64,000 bases of DNA. Source: Oxyruncus cristatus. Taxonomy: Eukaryota > Chordata > Aves > Passeriformes > Cotingidae. How positions within the stretch are numbered: position 1 is the first letter of the stretch; every line of letters starts with the position of its first letter. Shown here piece by piece: positions 575 to 55,154 of this stretch. Location of the stretch: positions 318,672-382,671 of the forward strand of contig VXAY01007412.1 of the NCBI GenBank assembly GCA_013399855.1, written 5' to 3'. A program made the position numbers and the translations under genes. The notes beneath the pieces are model-generated. The model had not been told where the DNA came from, made no database searches, and was given only the letters and a program-made list of their open reading frames with translations.

Positions 575-2352
575 CTAACACCCCAAACCACTGAAGGTCC
601 CGATGCGGTCCAGTTTCAGCCCAAAGCAACCCCTGGGCATGGCCTTCCAGGCCCAATCTCCAGGCAATGCCCACTTGCGACTGGCGAGGGTCTTGCGCCA
701 GAGGGAAGGACGGGCAGCTCTAGCCCCAGATGGGAGGAAGGGGAGCGTGGAGGAAAGCAGCTGAGGACCAAAGCTGGACCCCTCCTTTGTGTCCTCTTCG
801 GCCAGTGTGGACTCAGGTTCCAGGGGCAGCAACCGTGAAAGGAGCATCTGGGATAAACAGAAGGAAGGGGGGTGGTGGGGTGAGAGCAGAGATGCCTTTG
901 CTCCTGGCTCTAAGGTTTGTAGCCCCTTGTACACCACTGCCCACACCCTCCTTAGGCCTCTGGCAGGACCTAAAGTAATGCCTGTGCACAGCACTGTGCC
1001 TGTGACATTGCATCCAGACAGAGGGAAGGGCTAGATCACCAGCTCCTGCTGTCTGAAATGACTTTGCTGTCCAAAACAGCTGGCAGGCATCTGCTGTGAG
1101 CCTCTGCCTGCGTGCAGATTGTCCTGCTCTTGTCAAGCCATGTACTTCCCTCCCAGTCCTGGATTTGGAAAGTAACAGGCTTCAGTCCTTGCTCCTCATG
1201 TGGATGCTGAGCACCTCTGTGTGTTCAGGCTGCTGTGTGGCATTTCATTTTTTCCAAAAGGCTGGTGGGAAGGATGGACCTGCCTCAAATACCTCCTGGT
1301 AAGAGGGAGAGGCAGGAGCAGAGCAGGTGTGAGGAAGGGCTACTCCCCATCCTCTAGATCATCTTTGCTGATTGTACACCCCCAGCACTGCTGAAAGTCT
1401 GCAGACAAGGATTGAGGGGTGCATTGGGCACAGTAGAGGCACAGCATGGCTGCCCTGGGAAGCAGCCTGTGGTAACCGTTCCTCATCTGTCTCTCACAGG
1501 GATGCTGAGCTGAGGCTGAAGATGCCTTTGTGCAGCTCTTTGCGGTAGCGAGCTAACTGAAGCAGACACGGGCATCTTCAGCGAGGAGTGAAAGTGGTGA
1601 GTCATACCAGGATCAGTCTTGTGATTTTAGTTCATGTCCTGACTACTTCCCTGGAGCTTTCCCAGGGTTATGTGAAGGCAAGGTGTTGGGGTTCAGGTTA
1701 GGGTTTGGGTAAGAGGGAGCTGGGTAGATTTGAAAGCCAAAAATATTATTGCTGCAACTACTGAGTATAAAAGGTTTACTCAAGTGAAGAAGCCTTTAGC
1801 TGGCATCCTGACAGGGGCTCTTGGCCTTAAAGAGTGTCTGCTGAGGGGCAGTACTGAGCTTAGGAGCAAAAATCCTGGCCAAACAGGATACATCTTCCCT
1901 CTGAAATGTCAGAACCAGGCATTGAACATGATGGGAGATACAACTTTCTGGTCATTGCTGACACAGAGCAGGGTTAGACAGGGCCAGGCTCTTTACCGTT
2001 AAAACCCTCTGCAGAGCACTAAAAACTTTTGTGTGTTTCCCGTCTTAAAATGCTGGTGCTCTTTAGGAGCTGGGTTATAAAGCCACCCTAGAGCTAAGGC
2101 TGCTGGACTGAAGGGGAGGGAGCAGTGAGAATAGACAGCAGCCTCCAGTAGTTGAAATCTGGGACCACCACTCATTCGAGGTTCAAACACAATTTCCCAA
2201 AACTGTTTCTCCACTTCTGAAACCTCCCTCAGCTCTCTCCCACTCCCTCCTACCTGTAGCCTTTGTCTTCGTAAGGACACAGTGTGAACGCTGGCAGAGA
2301 GCAGAACCAAGAGGAGGAAAAATGAGCAAGGCCATGACTGGAGCCCCAGCAT
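575..2352 (-). CDS. C-type natriuretic peptide precursor, CNP-1-like (2 exons)
   Basis: Prohormone of a secreted C-type natriuretic peptide, a family that signals through natriuretic peptide receptor guanylyl cyclases. Two coding exons: 2254-2352 (33 codons; ATG at 2352; CAG|GTAGGA donor) and 575-847 (90 codons plus TAG, after a pyrimidine-rich TTTATCCCAG acceptor). The junction is phase 0. The 123-aa product has a hydrophobic signal peptide (about residues 1-24), a weakly conserved pro-region, and a C-terminal 17-residue ring CFGLKLDRIGTFSGLGC (Cys107-Cys123). The protein ends at the second ring cysteine, with no tail, as in CNPs and unlike ANP or BNP. The core FGLKLDRIG is diagnostic. Chicken is reported to have CNP-1 and CNP-3 genes. 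I assign CNP-1 from the position beside NCAPD2 and the lack of a tandem partner, which is inference; no symbol is given because naming varies. No typical multibasic site directly precedes the ring. Confidence 0.93.
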
Positions 2353-2433
2353 CTTCTTCTTATCCCAGGGCTTGTGGGAGGTGAGGCAGGACATGCAGCA
2401 TCCGTGTCGAATGCGGTCCCTGCCCCTCTCTGT

Positions 2434-2440
2434 CTTTATA
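2434..2440 (-). promoter_or_regulatory. TATA box of the CNP-like gene
   Basis: Minus-strand TATAAAG lies 82 bases upstream of the ATG at 2352. This predicts transcription start near 2404-2410 and a 5' UTR of about 55 bases. A focused TATA promoter without a CpG island fits a tissue-restricted peptide hormone gene. Function is inferred from sequence and spacing only. Confidence 0.7.
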
Positions 2441-13600: not shown

Positions 13601-16600
13601 TTGGCGGACTTGGATGCAGTTTCTTTGCTTTCCAACCTTGTCAGAACCCAATGAAAAAAGCTTCCTGATAAAAGAAACAGCATTTCAGTTCAAGGAACTG
13701 CTTCCCATCTTGCCTGAAAAGGTCCAGTCCATATTCACTTTCCCACTGCTTTTACATAGTTTTGTCATACACACTGCAGAGATAGCAGGTCAGCACAGTC
13801 AGGTGGCTGGCTCTGCTTTACCGGAGCAAATGAAGACAGAAAAGCCCCAGTGTCACTGCAGCCTCTCAGGCAATAAATGTCAAACTCTGAAGGGCCCATG
13901 TGAGGCTACACTTTGAATGAACAGGGGGTAACCCATACTGTTCTTACCTGCTTGGGCTAAACCTGCTTCAGTTAAAGTATCTCAATGTCACACAGCCAAA
14001 AACGACTTGAAAAAGTTTCAGAGAAGGTGCCTGATCATAAGGTCAGGGAACTCTACTGTAAGGCCTAAAGGTAAGCTGCAGAAAACTGTTCCAAACCCTG
14101 TTCTAGGCACACACAAGAAAGCAAAGGGACAAGGCACTGTTTTGGAGCCTGCCTTTCAGTGTGAATGGACGAGATCGAATTCAGCAACATCAGGCAAAAC
14201 TTGTAGTGCGAAGTTTCTTTTAGCTACTCTTATTTGGGCAACACAGAGGGACAGACAGCTGCTCTGCACCACTAACACACCTCTCCAGGACTCATGTCAT
14301 TCACTGATCCAGCCTCCAACAGCCCTTCCCTGTTCTCATCAAATAAGGTCCCTGATCATCCACTTGCCTTGTTGGAGAGTTCACTGAAAAAGTTCTGAGC
14401 CACTCCCACGATTGCCTCGTCTGGGTCTATCAGCAGAGCTGCCATTTCGCTCACTTGGCCCTTCACCTTCACCATGTCTTTGAGGATGAGGTGAGTCATC
14501 ACGAGTCCAGCTGTCTGCCTCACACTGGGGCAGGGGTCCTGCAACCTGACAGAAACAAAGGCTTACTGCAGGAAGCAGCGGAGTGAGCATCTCTAAGTTA
14601 CTGATACTCCTGACAGCCTACTCCATAGCCAGATCTGTTGTCTTCCTGCACAATCTTCAAATTTGGTTCCCGGGGTCATTCTCGCGTTCTGGAGGTGCAG
14701 TGTCACCCTTCCACAGAGTTTTCATCACCTGTCTCTCCCAGCAATGAGTGTAGCATTACCTGCCATAGAGATGTGATGTCCATGGCTCCACCAGGTTGGG
14801 GAAGCGGATGGCCAGATCTCCTGCTGCAATAATGAGGTTGGATCTCACACCGGGCAGAGTGGACTTCTCCATCATTGTGAACAGCAGACGCAAGTGAGAG
14901 TCACAGAACTCAGAGCTGACAAGATAGGGTATAGGAAAGAAGGGATAGATACCAAAATTCCATCTCTCAGAGAGCAGAGAAACAAAAACAGTTAAAGAAA
15001 AAAGTAATTTATGAACACTCTCCTGTGTTTGTTCTTTCGTTGGAAAGGGAGTTGCAACATTTGCTTGTGCTTAATACTAGGAAATCTGGGAAAAGAACTC
15101 TGGCATGGCTCAGTGGTACCTGATCATGCAGAGTTTGCCAAGAGTTAGGGCTGCAGCAGCTGACAGTGCTGAATCACTGTAGCGTCCAGGATTGTTGCAG
15201 ATCTTGAGCACCAGCGGAACAAAGGCAGAGAACAGGTGCTTCCCTAGAGAGTGGGGTTAAAGACAGTGAGTATGAGGGCACTGTTTGTGTATCCCACTGT
15301 AAAAACAACTACTCAGTTTATCCCAGAACTGCTGCAAACTACAGTAACTGGTTGACTCACTTTCACCAAGAACAACCACCTGCAGAGAGGCAGAGCAAAG
15401 AAACAGCCTACATGGAAACTGACACCAGGCCAAAAATGACTGTTTCCTTCTGAAGAAAACAGCCTTCCTCCTTCAGGATACCCACCATACCTGTTCTTTC
15501 ACACAGGCAGACAGAGCCAGTGCTCCTTGGTGGCAGCCACACTTACCATCTAGAAGTTCCGTCTCACAAATATTGCAGATGAGCTCGGCCTCAGTATCAT
15601 CAGCTGTGGCTCCCATGAGGTCCAGCTCCTCCTCCATAGTGGTCTCGTTTCCTGTGGTCTGTGCAGAAAGGAAGATTGTAAAAAAGATGTCAGGCAACAA
15701 TAATCCCTTTCTTCACAAAGTTCTCTTCTCTCGAGTGTGAGGTATATGCATATTACCAGCCACACAACTAGAATGGAGAACAACGGACTGATGGAGATTT
15801 TATAACCCACTTTTCCCCCAAGAACTCACTGAAGTAGTGAAGGGTAGTCCAAGATTTGCCAGTCCACATGCCACAGAACACTAACCACAGAATCACATAG
15901 TAAGGTTGGAAGGGACCACAGCAGGTCATCTGGTCCAACCTCCCTGCTCAAGCAGGATCATCCTAGAGCACATGGAACAGGATTGCAGCCAGACGGTTCT
16001 GGAATATCTCCAGTGAGGGAGACTCCACAACCTCTCTGGGCAATCTGTACCAATGCTCAGTCACCCACACAGTTAAGTTCTTCCGCATGTTTAGATAGAG
16101 CTTCCCGTGTATCAGTTTCTGCCCATTGCCTCTCTTCCTAGTGGTTGGCACCACCAAGAAGAGCCTGGCTCCATTCTCTTGACACCCTCCCCTCAGACAC
16201 TTATAGACACGGATAAGGTCCCCTCTTAGTCTTGAGACTGAAGAGGCCCAGCTCTCTCAGCCTTTCCTTGTAAGAGAGATGCTCCAGGTCCTTAATCATC
16301 TTTGTTGCTCACTGCTGGACCTGCTCCAGGAGCTCCATGTCCTTCTTCTACTGAGGAGTCCAGAATGCAAAGAAAGCTTAAGCTACCAATGCTACTAAGA
16401 TGAGGCAGACTTAGGACACATCTGGCATCAATGTAGGAGTCCCGTACAACTTGAGGGACATTCAAATCCTAAACACAAGAAGTTCAAAGCAGCCTTTAAA
16501 TTACTGGTCTCATGAGCAAGATTGTGGGAAACGTTATAATAGCAAGGCAAAAGTAACACAAGGGAAGAAAAGAGACATGGGTGTTGCAGTGGGGACCAAA

Positions 16601-28600: not shown

Positions 28601-31600
28601 AGAATATTCTAAAAAAATTATTCTGATCCTAAGGAAAGAAACCCCACAGTGGATTCAAATAAAACTGCTGCAGGTTTTTACCTCGATCAAATACATCCCT
28701 CCTGGCCTTCAGTGAAGTTACCAGTTACACTAAGAGAAAATAACTGGGACTACAAGCCTGAGACTACAAGATCTGGACCTGGGAAAATGACAAAGCTCCC
28801 ACCTGCAGAGTCAAAAGCTACACTGTCCCTCCCACAAGACACAGAAAGGCTGCTCCCCAGGCTATAGCACACTACAGATATGTGGCCTGCAAACAGACAT
28901 ATGGCATATCCATCACACTAATCAGAATTACCTTGCAGGAGAAGGGGTTGTTGGACAAAAACGCAGCCAGGAGCTGGATTGCATTTTTAACTACTATGAC
29001 AGATTTGTCATTGAGACGCCCAACAGCCAGTGATACCACAGACTGGAACTGAGTCAAAGGCAGGGCCTAGCACACAATGAGAGCACAGACAAAGTTATCA
29101 AGGAGGCTTAAAGACTTGGGAAAAGTTATTTTACTGAAGATCTATTCACGTACTAAAAGGTACATATTATAGATTTACAGAAAAGTCTCGGTCTGAAGGG
29201 ATCTCTGGTATCTTCTTGTCCAGCCTCCACTGAAAGCAAGGACTTAGGTTATACAGGGTCCTGCTGAGTCTAGTCTTAGCATATCTAGCAAGGGTGATGT
29301 TCTCCCATACCAGTGGCTAAAAAGAGGCTGCATACTGTGCTCTTTCTTCTAGTTTTTCCCAGTAATGAAGAGCACCATTTAATTTGTGCCCCCAGTTCCC
29401 TCACCCCTAGATGTTTGGTCTCTTGGAAAAAAGGAACTGCAGAGTACACAGGAACAATACCTTTCTCTGTTAAAACTTTAGTCTCTCTAAACAAAAGGCA
29501 GGGTGGCAGAAATTCCCTCGGAAAACACAACAGGGGAAGGGATGAGGGAGGCAACACCTTTTCCCCAGCACGGACTTACCTTGCACTGAACGATTCGAGT
29601 GAAAAGCTGCAGCACGCGGCTGCGCACGAAGCTGTGGATGTCACACACGTGGGCCTGCAGCATACTCAGGAACTTGTCCCGAGTACCACGGGCAGCCTCC
29701 TCCAGCTGGTTACCATTCAGCACCTGCATCAGTGCTTCTGCCATAGCTGCCAGAATGGCATTTCGCATCATGTAACTCTGCAAAGAGTAGAGTTGTTGAA
29801 CCAGGAACAGACAAAAAGACATCACTTGATATGCCAAGGGATGGCCCAGAGTTTGGGTCTTCCAAGTCCCAGGCTCCAGCCTTAAGTGAGTTTTTTTTAT
29901 TATGGACATTGTATTAAACTTGGATGAACATAGCTGTGCCTGCAAGACAGAGTAACCTCCCCCATGCATACAAGCCAAGGGAGGTGGTGTTGTTCAGACT
30001 GGAGAAGAGAAGGCTCCAGGGAGACTTTATAGCACTTTCAAGTTCCTAAAGGGACTACAAGAAAGCTGGAGAGGGACTTTTTACAAGGGCAAGTAGTGAT
30101 AGGACAAGGGGGAATGGCTTCAAACTGAGAGTAGGTTTAGATTGGATATTGGGAAGAAATTCTTTACTGTGAGGGTGGTGAAATACTGGAACAGGTTGCC
30201 CAGAGAAGCTGTGGATGCCCAGTCCCCGGAAGCATTCGAGGTCAGGTTGGATGGAGCTTTGAGCAACCTGGTCTAGTGAAAGGTGTCCCTGCCCATGGCA
30301 GGGGTGTTGGATATAGATGACTTTTATGGTCCCTTTTAAGTCAAACCAGTCTATGATCCTAATCCAATCCTGCTGTACAGTTAGGTCCACAGAGGCCAAG
30401 AACTGATGTGAGAAACACTTAAGGCTTTTAAGGGTAGTTAAGAGAAGGTAACACAATGACAAACTTGTTAAGTACTGAAGACCAAGAGACAACAGCTGGG
30501 AGCTCAGACCACTAAGCAGTCTCCCATTCTCTGACATCCAACTGTGACAACCAGGCAGTAGATGTCATGGTTTCTGTTTCCTTTGCATCATTTAGGTAAG
30601 GGAAGAACGTGTTCCACAGGGCAGGTTTTGGCTACTTGAGCTCTGTGAAAGAGGTTCTGTTTTCAGACAGAAAAACTGGATAGCAGCACCTCCACCACTT
30701 GACTTCTCTGGACAGGTAACAATGCGGAAATGTACCTCCCCATCCAAGTGGTGCAGGAGAACGCTCATGTGGGATAGCACTAGGGCTGGAATCTGTCCGG
30801 TCAGTTCAGTTATAAAGGCAGAATAACCCTTGACTCCAGAAGCCTCACGAGCCAATTCCTGCGGACATTTCTGTCCAATTTCCCTGCAAAGAAAGATGAA
30901 ACAAGGAGTGGCGCGCCTCAAGTTGCTAGGGATAGAAGGACAAGCATCAAGGTATTTCTCTCACCTTAGCAATTCACCCACCAGACTTTTCAGACCATAC
31001 TCTTTAGCCCAGAGGCTCACGGCCTGTGCAAACACAGGGGCTACATGTTCAAAGTGCTGCAGCATCTGTGTGATCTTCAGAGTGGCACCTTTCACACGAG
31101 ACAACGAAGAAAGAGGTAAGCAAAAGTAACTGGGAATGGCTTCAGGAAGAAGGCAGAAGAGCAGGAACTCACTGAACATTTGGCTGCAATGAATCAGAGC
31201 TCCAGCGAGCAGATGTGTCACAGCCTCCCGTGTGGCACGATACCTTTGAAGACCGATACTTGGATTCTCCAGGATACGGTAGCAACTTCCCATCATTAAG
31301 CTAAAGCCACAGAAGACAGACAGCAAACCTGTCACAACTGGAACCAACACCATTCTACCACACCACACTAGGCAAACATTTCTATCAAACCAAAGAGATT
31401 CTTCAATATCCTCCAAAAATTAGCAAACAACATCTGAATTTTTGAGGAAAGGAAGTGGTTCCTATACACACAGATTTTGCCTCAAGCTGGTTTCCTCAGT
31501 TTCCCAATGATCTGCACCTTCCAGATGACTGTAATACCAACTCATTGGTAGATTTAACATTTAACCCTCCCTTCCAGGGAACCACTCACTCATCCCACCT

Positions 31601-33443
31601 CTACATCTACTCCATCCCATACCTGACAAACTCTTCTTCCACTGATAAACCACCCCAAAGCTGACGGAGATCCAGCTGCAGCACATGAGTAAGCAGCTGT
31701 AAGACTGGCTCCCTCTCCTCTTCCCAGAAGGATCCAGAAGTCTTGGCATGGTTCTTCTTGTTCTAGAAAGGAGATTACACAATGTGATACACCAAAAAAA
31801 TAAATCACCAACCTGCTTCCCTTGAAAATTAATGTCTGTTAATTCTACAGCATTAAGAGACACACAGTGATATGCATGAGATCACAGAATCACACTGGAC
31901 TTCCCCAAATTCTTCTCTCTCAGCTCAAGCTGCCCCACTGTCCAGTGCAGCTCACAGCTGGCACCCATAGGCAGCAGGACTGAGGCCAGCACTGGTGTCT
32001 CCCATGGCCTAAGGATATACCTGCATCCACCGCCTTCATCTCTTCCCACAGAAAGGAACTCATGAGAAAATACTGGCACACTAAGTACCAGCTAGACACT
32101 GAAGAGCAAAACAAAAAGGTCTGGGCATCCAAGTCCCTGCTGATGTTTAGACATGACTGTCCATTTGTTTTCCATGCACAGTTTCACAGAAACACCAGCA
32201 CTCCACCTTACGCACTGCTCTTACTGGCATTAGGCTTAAACAAACCCAGCTAAAACATCTTATAGATGTTCAGCAAGCTTAAAAATTTTTCTGATGTTTT
32301 TCATCTTGTTTTTCTCCCACTCCCCTCACCCACCTTCCCACCAGGATCTGCCTCCAACAAACTGTTCTTGCGGGTTTCCATTTCAAAGGCATCCACCAGA
32401 GAAGTCAGGAGGTAGCAGTTCATCTTAAGAGCATTGAGGTGAGCAGCACGGTCTTCTTGGCTCAGCCTAGAGTCACTCAGGATGCCAGGAAGTTCATTGG
32501 AATGATGGGACACCACTGAAGAGAGGCAGAAAGTCATGAGCACTCCTTGCCAGGCCCCTCAGCCATCCTCTCTTTTAGAGGCTTAGAGCAGTCATCAGAT
32601 TACCAAAGATGTGTGCTCACATCTCACCAGCTGTAACACAGGCTGCCCCCTACAACCCAAACCTTGGACATGCTGTCTTATCCTATCCCCACAGCCCTTT
32701 GTCAGCTCAGAGAAACACTCACTCTGAGCTGATGCACCCCGAAGATGTATTTTCCAGGGATGTGGGCTGGAGGATTTTCTGTCGGTCTGCCCTTACAGCA
32801 AACATGCACAGCTCAGCATCGTCCACCAAGATTACAGACCCGTATGACAGGAGTGGGCTGAGGGTGCAGCCCAGCTGGCCGAGTCACATTAGCCTTTATA
32901 TCATCATTGAGCTGCCAGAGGAAAACAACCTCTCCCTTAGTCCTGCTTGGGCCAGTAACAGCGGATACCCACCGTTCACCATCAGCTCCAGGGCGTCCTC
33001 CTTGACAGCGGAGCCCACAGTTCGGAAGTGGCTGCGGGGCAAGCACAGTGCGTGAGGGCAGTGGGCAAACAGCGCCCGGCGGAGGGGCGAGAGCCCGCCT
33101 CTCCGCCTCCCCCCTCCGCCCGCTACCCCCAGTACTCACTGGAGCACGCTGTACACGGAGTCGAAGTGCTGCAGCACGGCCAGCCCGCCCCGCGCACGGA
33201 GAGCGGCCCGGAAGGCTGCGGGAAAACACGGGGAGGGGCAGAGGGCACACGGCCGTGAGCCGGCGGCAGGACCGGGCCAGGCCGGGACGGGGGATACGGA
33301 GACAACTTACCTGCGAGGGCGGGCGGCAGCTCACGGACGGGCAGCACCTCCTGCACCACGTAGTGCCCGCGGCCATCGCCCCGCAGCAGGTCGGCGGCGG
33401 CGAGAGGCAGCTGGAACTGCGGAGCCGCCACCGAGTCCGCCAT
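7601..33443 (-). CDS. NCAPD2: Condensin I complex subunit D2 (31 coding exons)
   Basis: CAP-D2 is the HEAT-repeat regulatory subunit of condensin I, which compacts chromosomes in mitosis. Coding exons in transcript order: 33311-33443, 33140-33215, 32973-33031, 32334-32515, 31623-31762, 31173-31300, 30965-31088, 30736-30883, 29580-29777, 28932-29066, 28274-28358, 27487-27664, 27140-27261, 25976-26185, 23864-24038, 22196-22280, 21913-22046, 20780-20912, 18016-18100, 17762-17923, 17307-17521, 15547-15658, 15120-15243, 14760-14915, 14368-14545, 13257-13351, 10733-10813, 8509-8695, 8160-8286, 7857-8018, 7601-7683. All phases agree and total 4212 nt (1403 aa; human is 1401). The protein is helical HEAT-type throughout, with the conserved Cnd1 region near residues 1060-1240 (for example [20 protein letters not shown]). 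The tail is acidic and basic, with a likely NLS ([11 protein letters not shown]) and Thr-Pro sites at T1341, T1387 and T1392. Start: ATG at 33443 in a CGGCCATGG context. Intron 25 has a GC donor, and exon 12 has a NAGNAG acceptor. Confidence 0.98.
9105..9118. repeat. (TC)n microsatellite
   Basis: Seven TC dinucleotides in NCAPD2 intron 27. Confidence 0.8.
11380..11860 (-). mobile_element. Possible degraded CR1-type LINE fragment
   Basis: In NCAPD2 intron 26, plus-strand text around 11518-11575 (CCAGAACTGTGGCAGCACTC, then a GTCACCAG motif) resembles the reverse-oriented 3' part of old CR1 elements. It is strongly diverged and the ends are not defined, so this call is tentative. Confidence 0.35.
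13352..14367 (-). other. NCAPD2: NCAPD2 intron 25, GC-AG type
   Basis: Exon 25 ends ...AACAAG and is followed by GCAAGT (minus strand; GC at 14367-14366). The intron ends ...TTCTGCACAG before exon 26. No GT donor nearby keeps the frame and the conserved protein junction ELSNK|DNAIYN. GC donors with an otherwise strong AAG|GCAAGT consensus are a known minor class. Confidence 0.9.
15887..16366 (-). mobile_element. CR1 LINE 3' fragment
   Basis: Plus-strand text opens with ACAGAATCACATAGTAAGG and GGTTGGAAGGGACC, then TCTGGTCCAACCTCCCTGC, the hallmark of an inverted avian CR1 3' end. The element therefore reads on the minus strand, the same direction as NCAPD2, within intron 21 (15659-17306). It is 5'-truncated, as usual. 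Confidence 0.93.
18802..19879 (+). mobile_element. Endogenous retrovirus LTR (about 1.08 kb)
   Basis: In NCAPD2 intron 18, on the strand opposite the gene. It starts TGTCATGGG and ends TTTCA (TG...CA). It has a CCAAT box at 18937-18941, an AT-rich TATA-like stretch (ATATTTAAG) at 18963-18971, and AATAAA at 19741-19746. A GC-rich central part has repeated CCCATGG-containing units (about 19040-19570). It is followed by a primer-binding site and perhaps 150-200 bases of leader. No gag, pol or env sequence is visible, so this is a truncated or decayed copy. Confidence 0.82.
19884..19896 (+). other. Retroviral primer-binding site, tRNA-Phe type
   Basis: TGGTGCCGAAACC is complementary to the 3' end of tRNA-Phe including CCA. 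It sits four bases after the LTR terminus, the normal position. The match covers 13 bases, then diverges. It fixes the LTR boundary and orientation. Confidence 0.75.
25645..25671. repeat. Perfect 12-bp inverted repeat with 3-base loop
   Basis: AATAAAATGGTT, CAA, AACCATTTTATT in NCAPD2 intron 14. It is followed to about 25720 by AT-rich imperfect repeats of ACATTT/AAAACATTT. It could form a hairpin or be a relic of a MITE-like element; no target duplication is visible. Confidence 0.85.
29170..29240 (-). mobile_element. Probable CR1-like remnant
   Basis: A short stretch in NCAPD2 intron 9 (GGTCTGAAGGGATCTCTGG, then CTTGTCCAGCCTCC) resembles the inverted 3' end of an old CR1 copy. It is too short and diverged for a firm call. 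Confidence 0.35.
29990..30360 (+). mobile_element. CR1 LINE 3' fragment
   Basis: Contains TGTTCAGACTGGAGAAGAG, AAATTCTTTACTGTGAGGGT, GGAACAGGTTGCCCAGAGAA and GCAACCTGGTCTAGTG, then a decayed 3' end (CCAGTCTATGATCCT). Sense CR1 3' region in NCAPD2 intron 8, opposite to the gene. Confidence 0.93.
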
Positions 33444-33688
33444 GGCCGCCACAGCTCAAAACAGCGCGCGCGGCTCGCGCTCGCCCCGCCCCCTCCACGG
33501 GCCTATCAGAGCCCGGCGGCCCCGCCGCGCGCCCGCGTCGCGCCCAATCGCGGGCCCCACTGCGCTCGCGGCCGTTAGCCAGACGTCACCGGCGCGTCCC
33601 TGCGCTCCCCGGCGGAAGGGGCCGCACCGCCGCCCGGCCCTTCCTGACCCTTCCCGTCCCTTCCCTCGGGGCACTGGCGGTCACCCCG
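33444..33688. promoter_or_regulatory. Divergent CpG promoter, NCAPD2 / MRPL51
   Basis: Only 245 bp separate the NCAPD2 ATG (minus) from the MRPL51 ATG (plus), inside a CpG island that extends over both first exons. Visible elements: a GC box (CCCCGCCCC, about 33484-33492), a CCAAT box at 33544-33548, a CRE-like GACGTCAC at 33582-33589, and an ETS-type CGGAAG at 33613-33618. There is no TATA box. The same head-to-head pair is found in mammals. Confidence 0.85.
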
Positions 33689-34315
33689 ATGGCGGCAGCG
33701 GCGCTGCTGCTGCGGGCGGCGGGCCGGGCCCTGCTGGGCCGGGCTGGGCCGCTGATCCGTGCCGAGCGGGGAATTAGCGAGAGCGGCGGGGCGCACTGGG
33801 CGCCCGTGCGGCCCGGTCTCCCCGTGCCCCTCTCCTCGCCCCTGGCGGGGCTCACCCGGCCCATCCTTATCAGGGAGCCGCCGAAGCGCAAGCCGGTGGA
33901 CCGCTGGACAAAGAAACGGGCCTTGTTCGGGGTCTACGACTACGTGGGGATCCTGGGTAAGACAGACAGCCCGCCGGGAGGAGGGGAGGGAGGCTGCACC
34001 CACCTGCGGGCTGGCGCCTCCTCCAGCAGCCAGAGGGCGGGGAGGATTTGGGCCGGCTGCCCTAGGAACAGCCTCCTCCAGAGCCTGGCTTCACCTCTGT
34101 CTTCCCTCCTGTTCTCAGGCGGCTTCCAAATCCACCCGAAGAATCTCATCAAGGGGCCCACGTGGCTGCGAGGCTGGCGGGGGAACGAACTGCAGAGGTG
34201 CATCCGCAAGAAGCGGATGGTAGGCGATCGGATGTTTGCAGAGGATCTTCACAAACTGAACAAGAGGATCCGGTACTTGTACAGGCGCTTCAATCGCACC
34301 GGGAAGCACCGCTAG
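33689..34315 (+). CDS. MRPL51: Mitochondrial large ribosomal subunit protein mL51
   Basis: A component of the mitochondrial 39S ribosomal subunit. Two exons: 33689-33956 (ends CTGG|GTAAGA, phase 1) and 34119-34315 (after TTCTCAG). Together they encode 154 aa. The N-terminal half is Arg/Ala-rich and fits a mitochondrial targeting sequence. The conserved part starts near [20 protein letters not shown] and continues through [20 protein letters not shown] and [20 protein letters not shown] to a basic end. It is longer than the human protein (128 aa) because of the N-terminal region. The start is the first ATG after the shared promoter; I noticed no better downstream candidate. Confidence 0.98.
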
Positions 34316-36810: not shown

Positions 36811-39135
36811 ATGTGAGTGTCCGACTGACAGACTGGCTGCGGTGGGCGCGGCGCGGGTGCGGTGGCTGGAGACTGAGGGAGTGGAGTCAGCACAGAGCCC
36901 GCGTCCCGACCGGCGGCGATGGGGCCGAGTGGCGCATTGCAGCAGCCGCAGGCAGGGCTGCCCGCAACGTCCCCGGGTGATCCTGCGCTCCCGTCGGCTT
37001 CGGGTGGATGGGTGGGTGGGTGCGTGGGCCGTGCCCCTCTGGTGATGCGTGGGGCTGGCGCGTCAGCCTCCCGGCCGGTGCCAACCTGGCCGGCGGCCAC
37101 CGCTGCGCCCAGCCCGGGGGCTGCTGCGTCCCCACGGGGTGCCCCCGCGCTGTCTCCCCGTTCCCGTTTCTCCTCCTTCTTCCCTGTGTCGCGGTCACCT
37201 CTGTGCGGCCCCCCTGCACTGGCGCACCCGTACGCCCTCGCGACCGATCCCCGCAGCCCCCTTGGGTTTGTCGCTGCTCGGGGCTCTCCCACGAGCCCGC
37301 CTGCTCCTGGTCTGGGGGGATCCAGGGCTCGCGGTGCTGCTGCCAAGCGCTGCTGAACACACGAGGCATCGGGTAGATTTGCGGGGTTGCCGCTCGAGCG
37401 GTCTCTTTGCCCATGTGTGTCTCTCCCTAGGTCTGACCCAGCTCCGCAGCCTGCTCCCGGGGCCCCCGAAGGGGGAGCCCCCGAAGGAGGAGCTCCTGAA
37501 GGAGGAGCCCCCAGTGCGGGTCCCCCTGGGGCTCCCCCCAATCTGAGCAGTAATCGCCGCCTGCAGCAGACCCAGGCCCAGGTGCAGGAGGTCAGTAGCT
37601 CCGCCAGCCCTGCTGGCTTCCCATTGGATGCCTGGACTCTTCTCCCACTGCTCTGCAGTAGCGGTGTTCTTGACAGGTGTCTGTCGCTGCGGGGTGGTTC
37701 TTCGTGTCACGCATTAATACTTCAATACTCAAAAATAGGGTGGCAAACCCATAAAGAGGCTGGAGGAGAGACTGGGTTTTGTTTAAAAGCTGCCTAATTC
37801 TAGAAATTACTTCCAAAGAGCAGGCCAGTTAGGTGGTTTTTTTTATTTTTAGTACTTCATATCGTGCATCTCTTATGGAAATAAAGCTATACGGCATCCA
37901 GGACAGCTCTTAATCCCTGCCTGCTGCTTCAAGGGAACAGTGTGTGTGCGGTGGGATGTGGGGGGACCCTTGCCTGGCTTCCCGGGATCAGTTCCTGCAG
38001 CTTGGCTGCTGCCGTGCAGTAGCGCCTTTGTGCCTCACTGGGGCAGCAACACGAAGCTCCGAAGTCAATTTTGCAGTTACCGGGGAGCAAGCATGTCATT
38101 CCTCTCATGAGGAGAGTGGCTTTGGCTTGCTGATGGATTTGGGAGCTTTTAAAGGCAGGTGAGAATTGGGGGGTTTAAACGTTAGTTATTGGCCGAGTTA
38201 CTCGTCTTACTTTTTCAACTGTCTTTACCAATACAACTCCTGCTACTATTCTTCCTTCTGCAGGTGGTTGATATAATGAGTGTAAATGTAGAGAAGGTGC
38301 TGCAACGAGATGAGAAACTGTCAGAGCTAGATGACCGGGCAGATGCACTTCAGGCCGGTGCCTCAATATTTGAAAGTAGTGCAGCAAAACTCAAAAGGAA
38401 GTACTGGTGGAAGAACTGTAAGGTGAGTTTCCTAGTGCCATGATCTCCTTCAACAGAAGGAAACTGGGCTACTCCTCTCCTGCAGGGCTTTGCAAGGATA
38501 GTTGGGGCTTAATGACAATTTCAAATGCTTAAGATTCTTTCACTGTAGAAAGAGTTTGAGGCCTTGGCTGTCATGCCTTCAGGGCCTCGCTTATGTTCCC
38601 TGGCCATCAGGGAGGATGTGAACTTGTCCATCTGTTCTGAGTATTACTCTTTGACAATCTTTTTCTCCAGATGATGATCATGATGGGAGTGATTGGTGCC
38701 ATTATTGTGGTGGTGATTGGAAGTAAGTACCAAAAAGCACAGGCTCAAGGGTGAAGAAACACCAACTCTAGACTATTTTAATTTTTCCTTTTTGGTTTGA
38801 GATCTCAAGGGTCTTAGTTGCTATAGGTGTTAACTTCAGTCCCTGGGGAAGGGAGTTGGGGAAGTCCTGGAATTCCCTCACTTATTGCAGAAATAGCATG
38901 CTTTACATAGTAATAGAAGAAATTTGGGATGCCATCATTGTAGAAATGGGAAATTCTGCCTGCAAGGTCAGGTAAACCTGTAAGTATGAGGGACCTCTTC
39001 CCTGGAGTGGGCGGGTTGGCAAGTCCCTTCCCTGGTGGGTAATTTGGAGGTCTCTGAGGGACCTTTGGTGTAACTTGCCCTTTTCTTTCCTTTTTTTTCC
39101 CTATTGCTTTGTCTCCAGTCTACTTTTTTACTTAA
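36811..39135 (+). CDS. VAMP1: Vesicle-associated membrane protein 1 (synaptobrevin-1)
   Basis: An R-SNARE of synaptic vesicles that pairs with syntaxin-1 and SNAP-25 for exocytosis. Exons: 36811-36812 (only AT of the start codon), 37431-37590, 38264-38422, 38671-38722, 39119-39135. They total 390 nt (129 aa; human is 118). The N-terminus is Pro/Gly/Ala-rich with three GAPEG repeats. The SNARE motif spans about residues 42-101, with the zero-layer Arg at R79. A juxtamembrane [12 protein letters not shown] follows, then a transmembrane anchor at about 108-128 ending IYFFT. Exon 1 ends AT|GTGAGT, and exon 2 begins CTCTCCCTAG|GTCTGACC, so the ATG is completed by splicing. Ile89 replaces the Gln usual in VAMP2 before Phe90. 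Reading through the exon 4 donor gives an alternative C-terminus ([11 protein letters not shown], stop 38752-38754), like the intron-retention isoforms known for this gene. Confidence 0.97.
37462..37505 (+). repeat. VAMP1: In-frame GAPEG tandem repeat in VAMP1 exon 2
   Basis: Three 15-nt units encode GAPEG (the first as GGGGCCCCCGAAGGG, the next two diverging at third positions). They account for most of the extra length over mammalian VAMP1. Confidence 0.85.
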
Positions 39136-48101: not shown

Positions 48102-51100
48102 TCAGTCGTGTCCCACCTCACCATCCCTGCTTGGCCCACGTGGTTCCAGGCTGTTATAGGATGGCAACGTGGTCACTACAGCCTCAACAGTAAAGCGATG
48201 TGGAGCACTGAGACCTGGTGTCTCTTCCTGGAAAGCAGTGTTATCATGACTGTTTGGAGAAGGTCCTGGTGGAGAGAGCTTCTGCCTGGAACGGAACCAG
48301 CGGAAGGCCAAGATAAAGGTGATGGCGATGAAATCCAGAATCAGCTCTGCAAGTTCCATCACAGACAGGACAGAGGATCCAAACCAGAGACTCCACTGGT
48401 TCCCAAGCTGGGACAGCAGAGTCACTACCTGCAAGAGATGGAGGAAGAGCAGTGAGGACAGCCCTCATTCAAGAGTTTTGCCTCCCTGCTTTTTCCCGCT
48501 AGCAGTTCCCCTGTGGTGCTGAGGGGTTCTCACCCTGCCACATGGAAAGAGACTGGATAGCCAGCAATGCTGCTGGAACAAACACGTGCCACTGTGGAGA
48601 GCCATCGTGGGGGAATGGGTGGCTAGAGAAGATATGGTGATAAAGTGTGTACCGTGAAGGCTGGAGACTCCCCGTTGGTCTTGTAGTTCCACTCCTCAAA
48701 AAAGATATTCACTTTGGCAACTCCATTCCTGTAAATGGAAGGTGAGGCTCAGTAACCCCAACTCCTCAATCCCTGCATTTCTTCACCAAGGGTAATTTTC
48801 TTCTCTGTCTCCTTCTGCCCCTATCCTTCTCCCACACGTACCACCCGGAGGCTTTTTCTCATCTCTGCAGTTCCCTCATTCTGCACTGAATGTAATCTTT
48901 GGTACTTACAGTGCACTTCTGAGACTGCACTGTGAAACCCAATGTTTGTGGCAAAAGCTTCTGCCAGCTCTCCTTCCCAATGTTCCATGAGCACGTACTG
49001 TGATTCCAGACCACATGGCAGGTGCCTGGGGCTTGCTGTTTTCATACCAACATCTGACCCCTTTCAAATTTTTCGCTTGGATCCCCAGCCCTTGCTGAAG
49101 TCTCAGAATATATCTACTCTGACTCAAATCCACTGGCCTTGTCCACAGGTTCCATGCCTGATCTCTTCCCATCATTGATCATTTATTCTGAACTCTGACA
49201 TTCCCAAAACACACACACTCCACTGGGATGGTTTCTGATTTGGACACAATCTCTGTTTAGGGGCTCTCACCTCTTGGATGTGATGTTGTATTTGTTCTGT
49301 TGTGAAAGCATGTAAAAAACCCAGTCCTGAAATGAAAGTGCAGTAAATTGTGTTACATGATCACAGTCACATCCTGTAGGTTTAGTACCAGTTGAGGAAA
49401 GACTAAACAGGAGGTGGGAGCAGTGCTGAAGAGCCAGGACACCCTCTCCTTACCTCTGAGACAGCAGAAGGCCAGCGGGAGTATCCAGCTGACAGCTGGT
49501 ACTGTGTCATTCTGGAAGACGAGAGGCTGTGTTAGCTGTTGAATCTGTGGGAGCCACAGGGCCAGGTCTTGCCATTTCCAGGCGCACCTGGAGATTCCCT
49601 CCCATGCTGAAGTTCTGCCCATTTTCCACTGTGCAGAATGCACAGTCCTTGGGAGCTCACCCCTAAGCTGACCCTGATGTTCCTTGGTCATTTTGGCGTC
49701 CTGATGGGAGATACACCATTTTGGGTGGCAGCTTAGCTATTGACTCAAGCTTTTGCCCTGGCCAGTGAATGCTTTCCAACAGTTCTAGGAATAAAGAGTT
49801 TTCAGTCTTCCTGACTGACTGATGATCAAACTTACTTGCAAGGTTTCCTACATTTGTGGAAACAGCCCAGCACATCAGCTTTGAATTCAGCCAGGAGTTT
49901 GTAATAGCAGTAGCCTGAACAGCAGAGAAAGTAAATCCAGGTAAGCTCACAGTATCTTTATATAAAAGGCGATGTGTGACAGTAAGGGGAATCCAGAGAA
50001 TGTTTCCTCCACAAGCTCCAAGGGACAGACCATCCAAGACAAGAGTGTCCTTTGGAAGTTCCCCCCAGGAAGCTCATTGAAGACAGTAAGATGTACTGGG
50101 GCAGGGGGGACACCTAACAGGTTCAGATGGGCACGAGTTTTACTGTTCCTTCTGTCCACTTACCCCAAGATATGTGCTTTGTGTAGTCACAGTACTCTGC
50201 TCCTTCGGGTAAGGGGTAGAAGTAATAGGCACAGCCACAGCGCTCGACCACGTTCAGCTGAAAGCAGGAGCGAATGCAGACCTGGGAGGCACATGAGGCG
50301 GAAAAGGCTGAGCAAGGAAACCAAACCCACTGCAGCCTATTAACATACTATTAACATCATACTATTAACAGAGCCCACGGACAAGCATGGCCCTTAGGGA
50401 ACTAAAATATTTCAGGAAAGTAGGGAAACAAGCCAGCACAGGACCAGTGACAGTGAGTTACCTGTTCGGTGTAGCGGGATGAGTACAGATTTTGCACTGG
50501 CACGTCACTGCCATCCTCTGTGCAATCACTGTAACTGCCCCCAAGACGCACAGTCATCTCCTGGAATAGCAAACTGTCATTGCACAGAACAACTGGCACT
50601 TTGCTGTCCTCTTCCTAAGCTTCCATGCCACAGGCTGCTCGACCATCAGTATCTACTCTTTATGCTTTCCTCAGGATGCTTCCATTTCATTGTTCACTGA
50701 TAAAGTGCAGCCAAATCTAGTCCGTAAGCTGCTCTTCTTCCTCTCCCTCCACTCCATGTGATTAATCCCCTCCCTTAAACACGCACTGGGTCTATGACAA
50801 CCCATCTGTATCTATGCACCAAGTTAAACTTCCCCATAGGCTCACATCCACAGGTCTTTCCCCTGCTGCTTCCTTACCTTTCTCATGCTGATGGAGGTCT
50901 CGATACCAGGACGCACGTTGAAACCCCCATCATCCATGAAGGCTGGCTCATTCTGATCATGCACCATGACCCTGGCTCCTGTCACCGTGGACAACAGAGG
51001 GATGAAATCATTCTGTTCGGTGCGCACCACCAGAGAGAGACCTGAGGAAACGTCAAAGAGCAAGGGAGGTCATGGCTGGCTGTGGTGTGGGAGAGTAGGG

Positions 51101-54921: not shown

Positions 54922-55154
54922 NNNNNNNNNNNNNNNNNNNNNNNNNNNNNNNNNNNNNNNNNNNNNNNNNNNNNNNNNNNNNNNNNNNNNNNNNNNNNNN
55001 NNNNNNNNNNNNNNNNNNNNNNNNNNNNNNNNNNNNNNNNNNNNNNNNNNNNNNNNNNNNNNNNNNNNNNNNNNNNNNNNNNNNNNNNNNNNNNNNNNNN
55101 NNNNNNNNNNNNNNNNNNNNNNNNNNNNNNNNNNNNNNNNNNNNNNNNNNNNNN
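54922..55154. other. Assembly gap (233 N)
   Basis: Unresolved bases next to GC-rich sequence, just upstream of SCNN1A. GC-rich promoter sequence is a common cause of such gaps. Any frame spanning it is meaningless. Confidence 1.

Follow-up and report, generated by a model that had tools for sequence, protein, structure and literature searches.

The window, a stretch of 64,000 nucleotides of Oxyruncus cristatus DNA, harbors a two-exon C-type natriuretic peptide gene on its minus strand. The gene is located within the NCAPD2-GAPDH interval, and we are highly confident that it is the bird C-type natriuretic peptide 1 (CNP1), the orthologue of CNP-1 from ray-finned fish. Avian CNP1 as such is an already known, ordinary gene. 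Here, we describe its structure, its neighbors, its relation to the other natriuretic peptides of the same genome and the likely processing of its product.

Gene structure and the natriuretic peptide ring

The coding sequence consists of exon 1 (2352-2254) and exon 2 (847-575), joined in phase 0. The features of the gene are the following:

2435..2440, minus strand: TATAAA box, a hexamer match about 83 nt 5' of the start codon
2254..2352, minus strand: coding exon 1, residues 1-33, with a signal-peptide-like stretch (judged by eye) and the start of the propeptide, ending in RLQ
848..2253, minus strand: phase-0 intron, GT...AG, 1406 nt
575..847, minus strand: coding exon 2, residues 34-123, with propeptide, RK site, CNP ring and TAG stop
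575..673, minus strand: predicted 32-residue mature peptide, codons W92 to stop, 3' of the putative cleavage site R90-K91

Exon 1 has 99 nt (33 codons) and is followed directly 3' by GTAGGAGG; exon 2 has 273 nt (90 codons plus TAG), with ...TTTATCCCAG directly 5' of it. The spliced product has 123 amino acids, MLGLQSW...GCFGLKLDRIGTFSGLGC*, and the C-terminal end of this prohormone reads ...PRGCFGLKLDRIGTFSGLGC, followed by TAG. An earlier note had proposed two exons 1.4 kb apart and a TATA box that give a 123-aa prohormone with a CNP ring. The GT/AG splice sites, the complete phase-0 frame, the length of the intron and the Pfam match described below bear this out, and the limits set in that note fall on the stop codon (575) and on the TATA box (2440). 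The TATAAA at 2440-2435 is likewise present, as one of 19 occurrences of this hexamer on the minus strand of the window, and is weak evidence when taken alone. An in-frame ATG at 2394 would extend the prohormone by 14 residues; the MLGL start used here is found in 14 of 17 aligned homologues.

Membership in the natriuretic peptide family is evident from the C-terminus. Residues 104-123 match the Pfam ANP family (E 6.3e-12, 45.9 bits with a cut-off of 27), and the best PDB match of the product is the C-type natriuretic peptide in 1jdp (residues 103-123, E 7.7e-6). The 17-residue ring of the family (PF00212), CFGxxxDRIGxxSGLGC, is present. The second ring cysteine is the last residue of the protein (GLGC, then TAG), and this tailless end is that of a C-type peptide. 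Zebrafish CNP-4 is described as an exception to the tailless rule in the available text of PMC10454581.

Genomic neighborhood

NCAPD2 is the upstream neighbor of CNP1 and is encoded on the same strand. Further features of the window are:

14359..14562, minus strand: NCAPD2 exon (Cnd1 domain) in an open frame, 69 bits, with condensin complex subunit 1 as PDB match
33056..34315, plus strand: MRPL51 coding sequence in an open frame, 115.5 bits, divergent from NCAPD2
38186-38440: synaptobrevin match, probably VAMP1
50845-51069: ENaC-type match, probably SCNN1A
54922-55154: assembly gap of 233 N

The names VAMP1 and SCNN1A lean on what we take to be the human gene order. The adjacency to NCAPD2 that had been claimed from the sequence alone is upheld by the Cnd1 domain and by the PDB match of the same exon. 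A putative NCAPD2 frame at 29487-29993 had no match in the PDB at E 0.001, and one of three frames around it matched Cnd1_N in Pfam, below the cut-off. Downstream of CNP1 and on the same strand, a GAPDH exon (99.7 bits) lies beyond a run of 2,696 N at the window edge, and additional GAPDH exons past this edge were recognized by eye. The frames that follow GAPDH presumably belong to IFFO1; Pfam returned no match for the one such frame that was searched. We know of no natriuretic peptide gene in the mammalian NCAPD2-GAPDH interval. Among the papers listed on CNP together with synteny, NCAPD2 or GAPDH, none appeared to deal with the CNP1 locus.

Homologues and the relation to fish CNP-1

Of 151 candidates from a protein search with the 123-aa product, 100 were homologues at E <= 0.001; most are gene predictions, in clusters that are not independent of each other. 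By name, 90 of these are from birds, one is from Crocodylus porosus and nine are unnamed. The top full-length homologue is 95% identical to Oxyruncus CNP1, and most named homologues are labelled ANFC, ANFC2 or C-type natriuretic peptide 1-, 2- or 3-like. Homologue search and alignment thus identify the gene with the avian CNP1 of other birds: length, exon junction, ring and propeptide are shared at up to 95% full-length identity and we noted no marked difference, a likeness that rests on bird homologues other than the chicken entry A9CDT5. The residues of exon 1 and the junction are also matched in bird homologues. CNP1 is named in the accessible text of PMC2873334 for zebra finch (Entrez 100226912) and chicken (UniProt A9CDT5). 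According to the accessible text of PMC8203102, chicken CNP1 lies on chr1; its RNA-seq fold change is -5.17 (p 0.024), and its promoter methylation shows a non-significant change (p 0.23). The idea that such a gene is easily missed by automated annotation does not hold, given the 90 bird-named protein clusters and the published genes of zebra finch and chicken.

The exon 2 start motif was found in 92 of the 102 proteins scanned (P0001-P0102), and RLQ stands immediately before it in 77 of these 92 (followed by M in 65 and by V, T, I or R in 12). Some homologues diverge upstream of the exon 2 boundary and have different N-termini with an identical junction point; this divergence exactly at the exon 2 start marks the same exon boundary again. 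P0072, P0078, P0082 and others join alternative N-termini to exon 2, and some of them are named isoforms. In Oxyruncus the frame stays open 5' of exon 2 (575-1030, with an extra part at 848-1030), and an intronic start lacking a signal peptide may exist in window positions 848-1030. P0093 from Aix galericulata, which is named GAPDH, opens with CNP1 exon 2 and departs just before the last cysteine. It is probably a gene-model fusion of the neighbors CNP1 and GAPDH; a read-through transcript is possible.

The relationship to fish CNP-1 is best seen in the propeptide. A profile search, with scoring confined to the 7987 candidates that had the most words in common with the query, gave 452 proteins at E <= 10, the best 120 of which were listed. 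Among these matches the next named ones after birds, crocodile and unnamed proteins are the CNPs of paddlefish and sturgeon (E 1.4e-10), which cover 97% and 92% of the query. The names given in the best 120 of the 452 include none from mammals, turtles, lizards or amphibians. We then compared an archosaur profile (17 rows) with a fish CNP-1 profile (7 rows) by hhalign after removal of the ring. Without the signal peptide the probability was 70% (E 3.9e-5, 25 columns), while nine control pairings, likewise free of the signal peptide, stayed at or below 2.7% (E >= 0.017). In the controls each profile was paired with the CNP-3, BNP and CNP-4 pieces of the Oxyruncus genome and with eel CNP-2; one further control set the reversed archosaur profile against fish. 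Except for this reversed profile, the controls are single sequences and hence weaker. With the signal peptide retained the probability rose to 88% (E 2.8e-6, 86 columns), a value to be read without a matched control. The propeptide is thus like that of fish CNP-1 outside the ring, and the label CNP-1-like given to the gene at first reading is justified.

Fish CNP-1 (from eel, sturgeon, gar, a characin and others) shares with the bird gene the ring, the tailless end and, N-terminal to the ring, a related LAxxK block. The two differ within the ring, where the fish CNP-1 examined has SM, SL or SI and the 18 rows of the homologue alignment have TF or AF. An eel brain study (PMC4175612) includes, in its accessible text, CNP-1 entries among the changed genes. 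In the text available of PMC10454581, mammalian CNP has zebrafish CNP-1 and CNP-4 alike as its likeliest orthologues, and the bootstrap values are low; therefore, the divide between CNP-1 and NPPC is not clean in sequence trees.

A duplication specific to birds that post-dates the split from mammals has been suggested in PMC2873334, in the available text of which CNP1 was found solely in avian genomes. We consider this improbable. Crocodylus porosus also has CNP1, the CNPs of paddlefish and sturgeon are the next best named among the matches listed, and the ring-less propeptide profile matches fish CNP-1 and not the CNP-3, BNP or CNP-4 pieces of the same genome. Because this profile still matches fish CNP-1, the sequence evidence on balance supports CNP1 as an old CNP-1 paralogue rather than an avian-specific duplication. 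If CNP1 is an old CNP-1, its loss in mammals would follow and is plausible.

Even less probable is a chance frame, or a copy in decay that is not expressed: the ring, the splice sites and the reading frame are intact, full-length identity to other birds is as high as given above and an RNA-seq change of chicken CNP1 has been published (PMC8203102). Since the exon junction recurs among the database homologues, chance is excluded and, judged by sequence, the coding frame is that of a real gene.

Other natriuretic peptide loci in the genome

A search of the whole 1.04-Gb genome found at least four places with a natriuretic peptide ring. The loci other than CNP1 and their neighbors are:

C1507: BNP-like and CNP-3-like exons, 8.7 kb apart
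C2226, 1098414-1098506: NPPC/CNP-4-like ring exon, from the genome search
C2226, 907-977 kb: five matches to the RNB domain (presumed DIS3L2), about 121 kb away from the NPPC-like ring exon
C2226, about 1.113 Mb: COPS7B exon, about 14.5 kb from the NPPC-like ring exon, on the side opposite the RNB matches

The BNP/CNP-3 pair is named from sequence and linkage only. On C1507, some 17 kb away from the CNP-3-like ring exon, lie frames that look by eye like a guanylyl cyclase catalytic domain (L014:1-2998). CNP-3, which adjoins BNP, resembles CNP1 in ring type and in the missing tail, but it is a separate gene at another locus with a different propeptide, and we rejected CNP-3 as the identity of the gene in the window.

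The COPS7B exon scores 129 bits to 7b versus 97 to 7a. We take DIS3L2 and COPS7B to be the neighbors of human NPPC. CNP1 is not in this slot, which on C2226 holds a separate natriuretic peptide gene. CNP1 and NPPC (CNP-4) have the ring type and the missing tail in common. That CNP1 is the ordinary NPPC (CNP-4), relocated in birds, would fit a ring almost the same as that of CNP in 1jdp, but the separate NPPC-like locus at C2226 1098414, with its RNB matches and COPS7B exon nearby, effectively refutes it and leaves it the least probable of all readings. CNP1 is therefore not a relocated NPPC, and the earlier claim of a paralogue distinct from NPPC stands on this second locus with its DIS3L2- and COPS7B-type neighbors. 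The upstream part of the NPPC-like exon lies inside a run of 2,197 N, and this gene may therefore be missed in gapped assemblies. The term NPPC is absent from the main text, as available, of the zebra finch paper PMC2873334.

Prohormone processing

Processing of the fish type, with a basic pair before the C-terminal 22-mer, was treated as a variable trait and not as definitive of CNP. The fish set comprised 15 of the 16 named fish proteins among the matches listed, with eel CNP-2 left out. The archosaur set comprised the 99 proteins with a ring out of 102 (7 unnamed); three ring-less intron read-through frames were dropped. All 15 fish proteins have KK, KR or RR immediately before the 22-mer, whereas 96 of the 99 archosaur proteins have no basic pair within 15 residues before the first ring cysteine. 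The remaining three are P0056, where RR immediately precedes the ring, as well as P0089 and P0095, in which deletions shift the sequence. Further upstream, the LAxxK block also contains a basic pair in 14 of the 15 fish proteins, as judged by eye. In archosaurs, positions -17/-16 before the ring cysteine are RK in 91, RR in two and other in six of the 99, and position -6 is K in 94.

Oxyruncus CNP1 itself lacks the fish-type pair and has a single K101 before the 22-mer, with R90-K91 further upstream. Because the basic pair before the 22-mer is missing, a 32-residue peptide set free at R90-K91 is the likely product; release of the 22-mer at K101 would be the less likely course. A broader proposal is tentative, and we hold it to be somewhat doubtful: archosaur CNP-1 may have lost the basic pair of the 22-mer, and the upstream site, present in a looser form in fish, would then yield an N-extended CNP of 32 residues, rich in Trp, whose behavior toward receptors or in clearance might be altered.

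Proposed mode of action and implications

Peptides of the CNP family act on the guanylyl cyclase receptor GC-B (NPR2) and raise cGMP. In Oxyruncus, the TATA promoter would drive a two-exon CNP1 transcript, the product of which would be secreted. The precursor would be cut at the basic site R90-K91 to give the 32-residue hormone, in which one disulphide is expected to close the 17-residue ring. CNP1 may then act on GC-B as other members of its family do.

Thus, we describe a bird in which four natriuretic peptide loci were found; CNP1, in the NCAPD2-GAPDH interval, is one of the four. We argue for CNP1 as an old vertebrate paralogue and against the avian novelty put forward in one paper. The missing 22-mer site matters for the measurement of CNP in birds, since assays for the 22-mer may overlook the real product.
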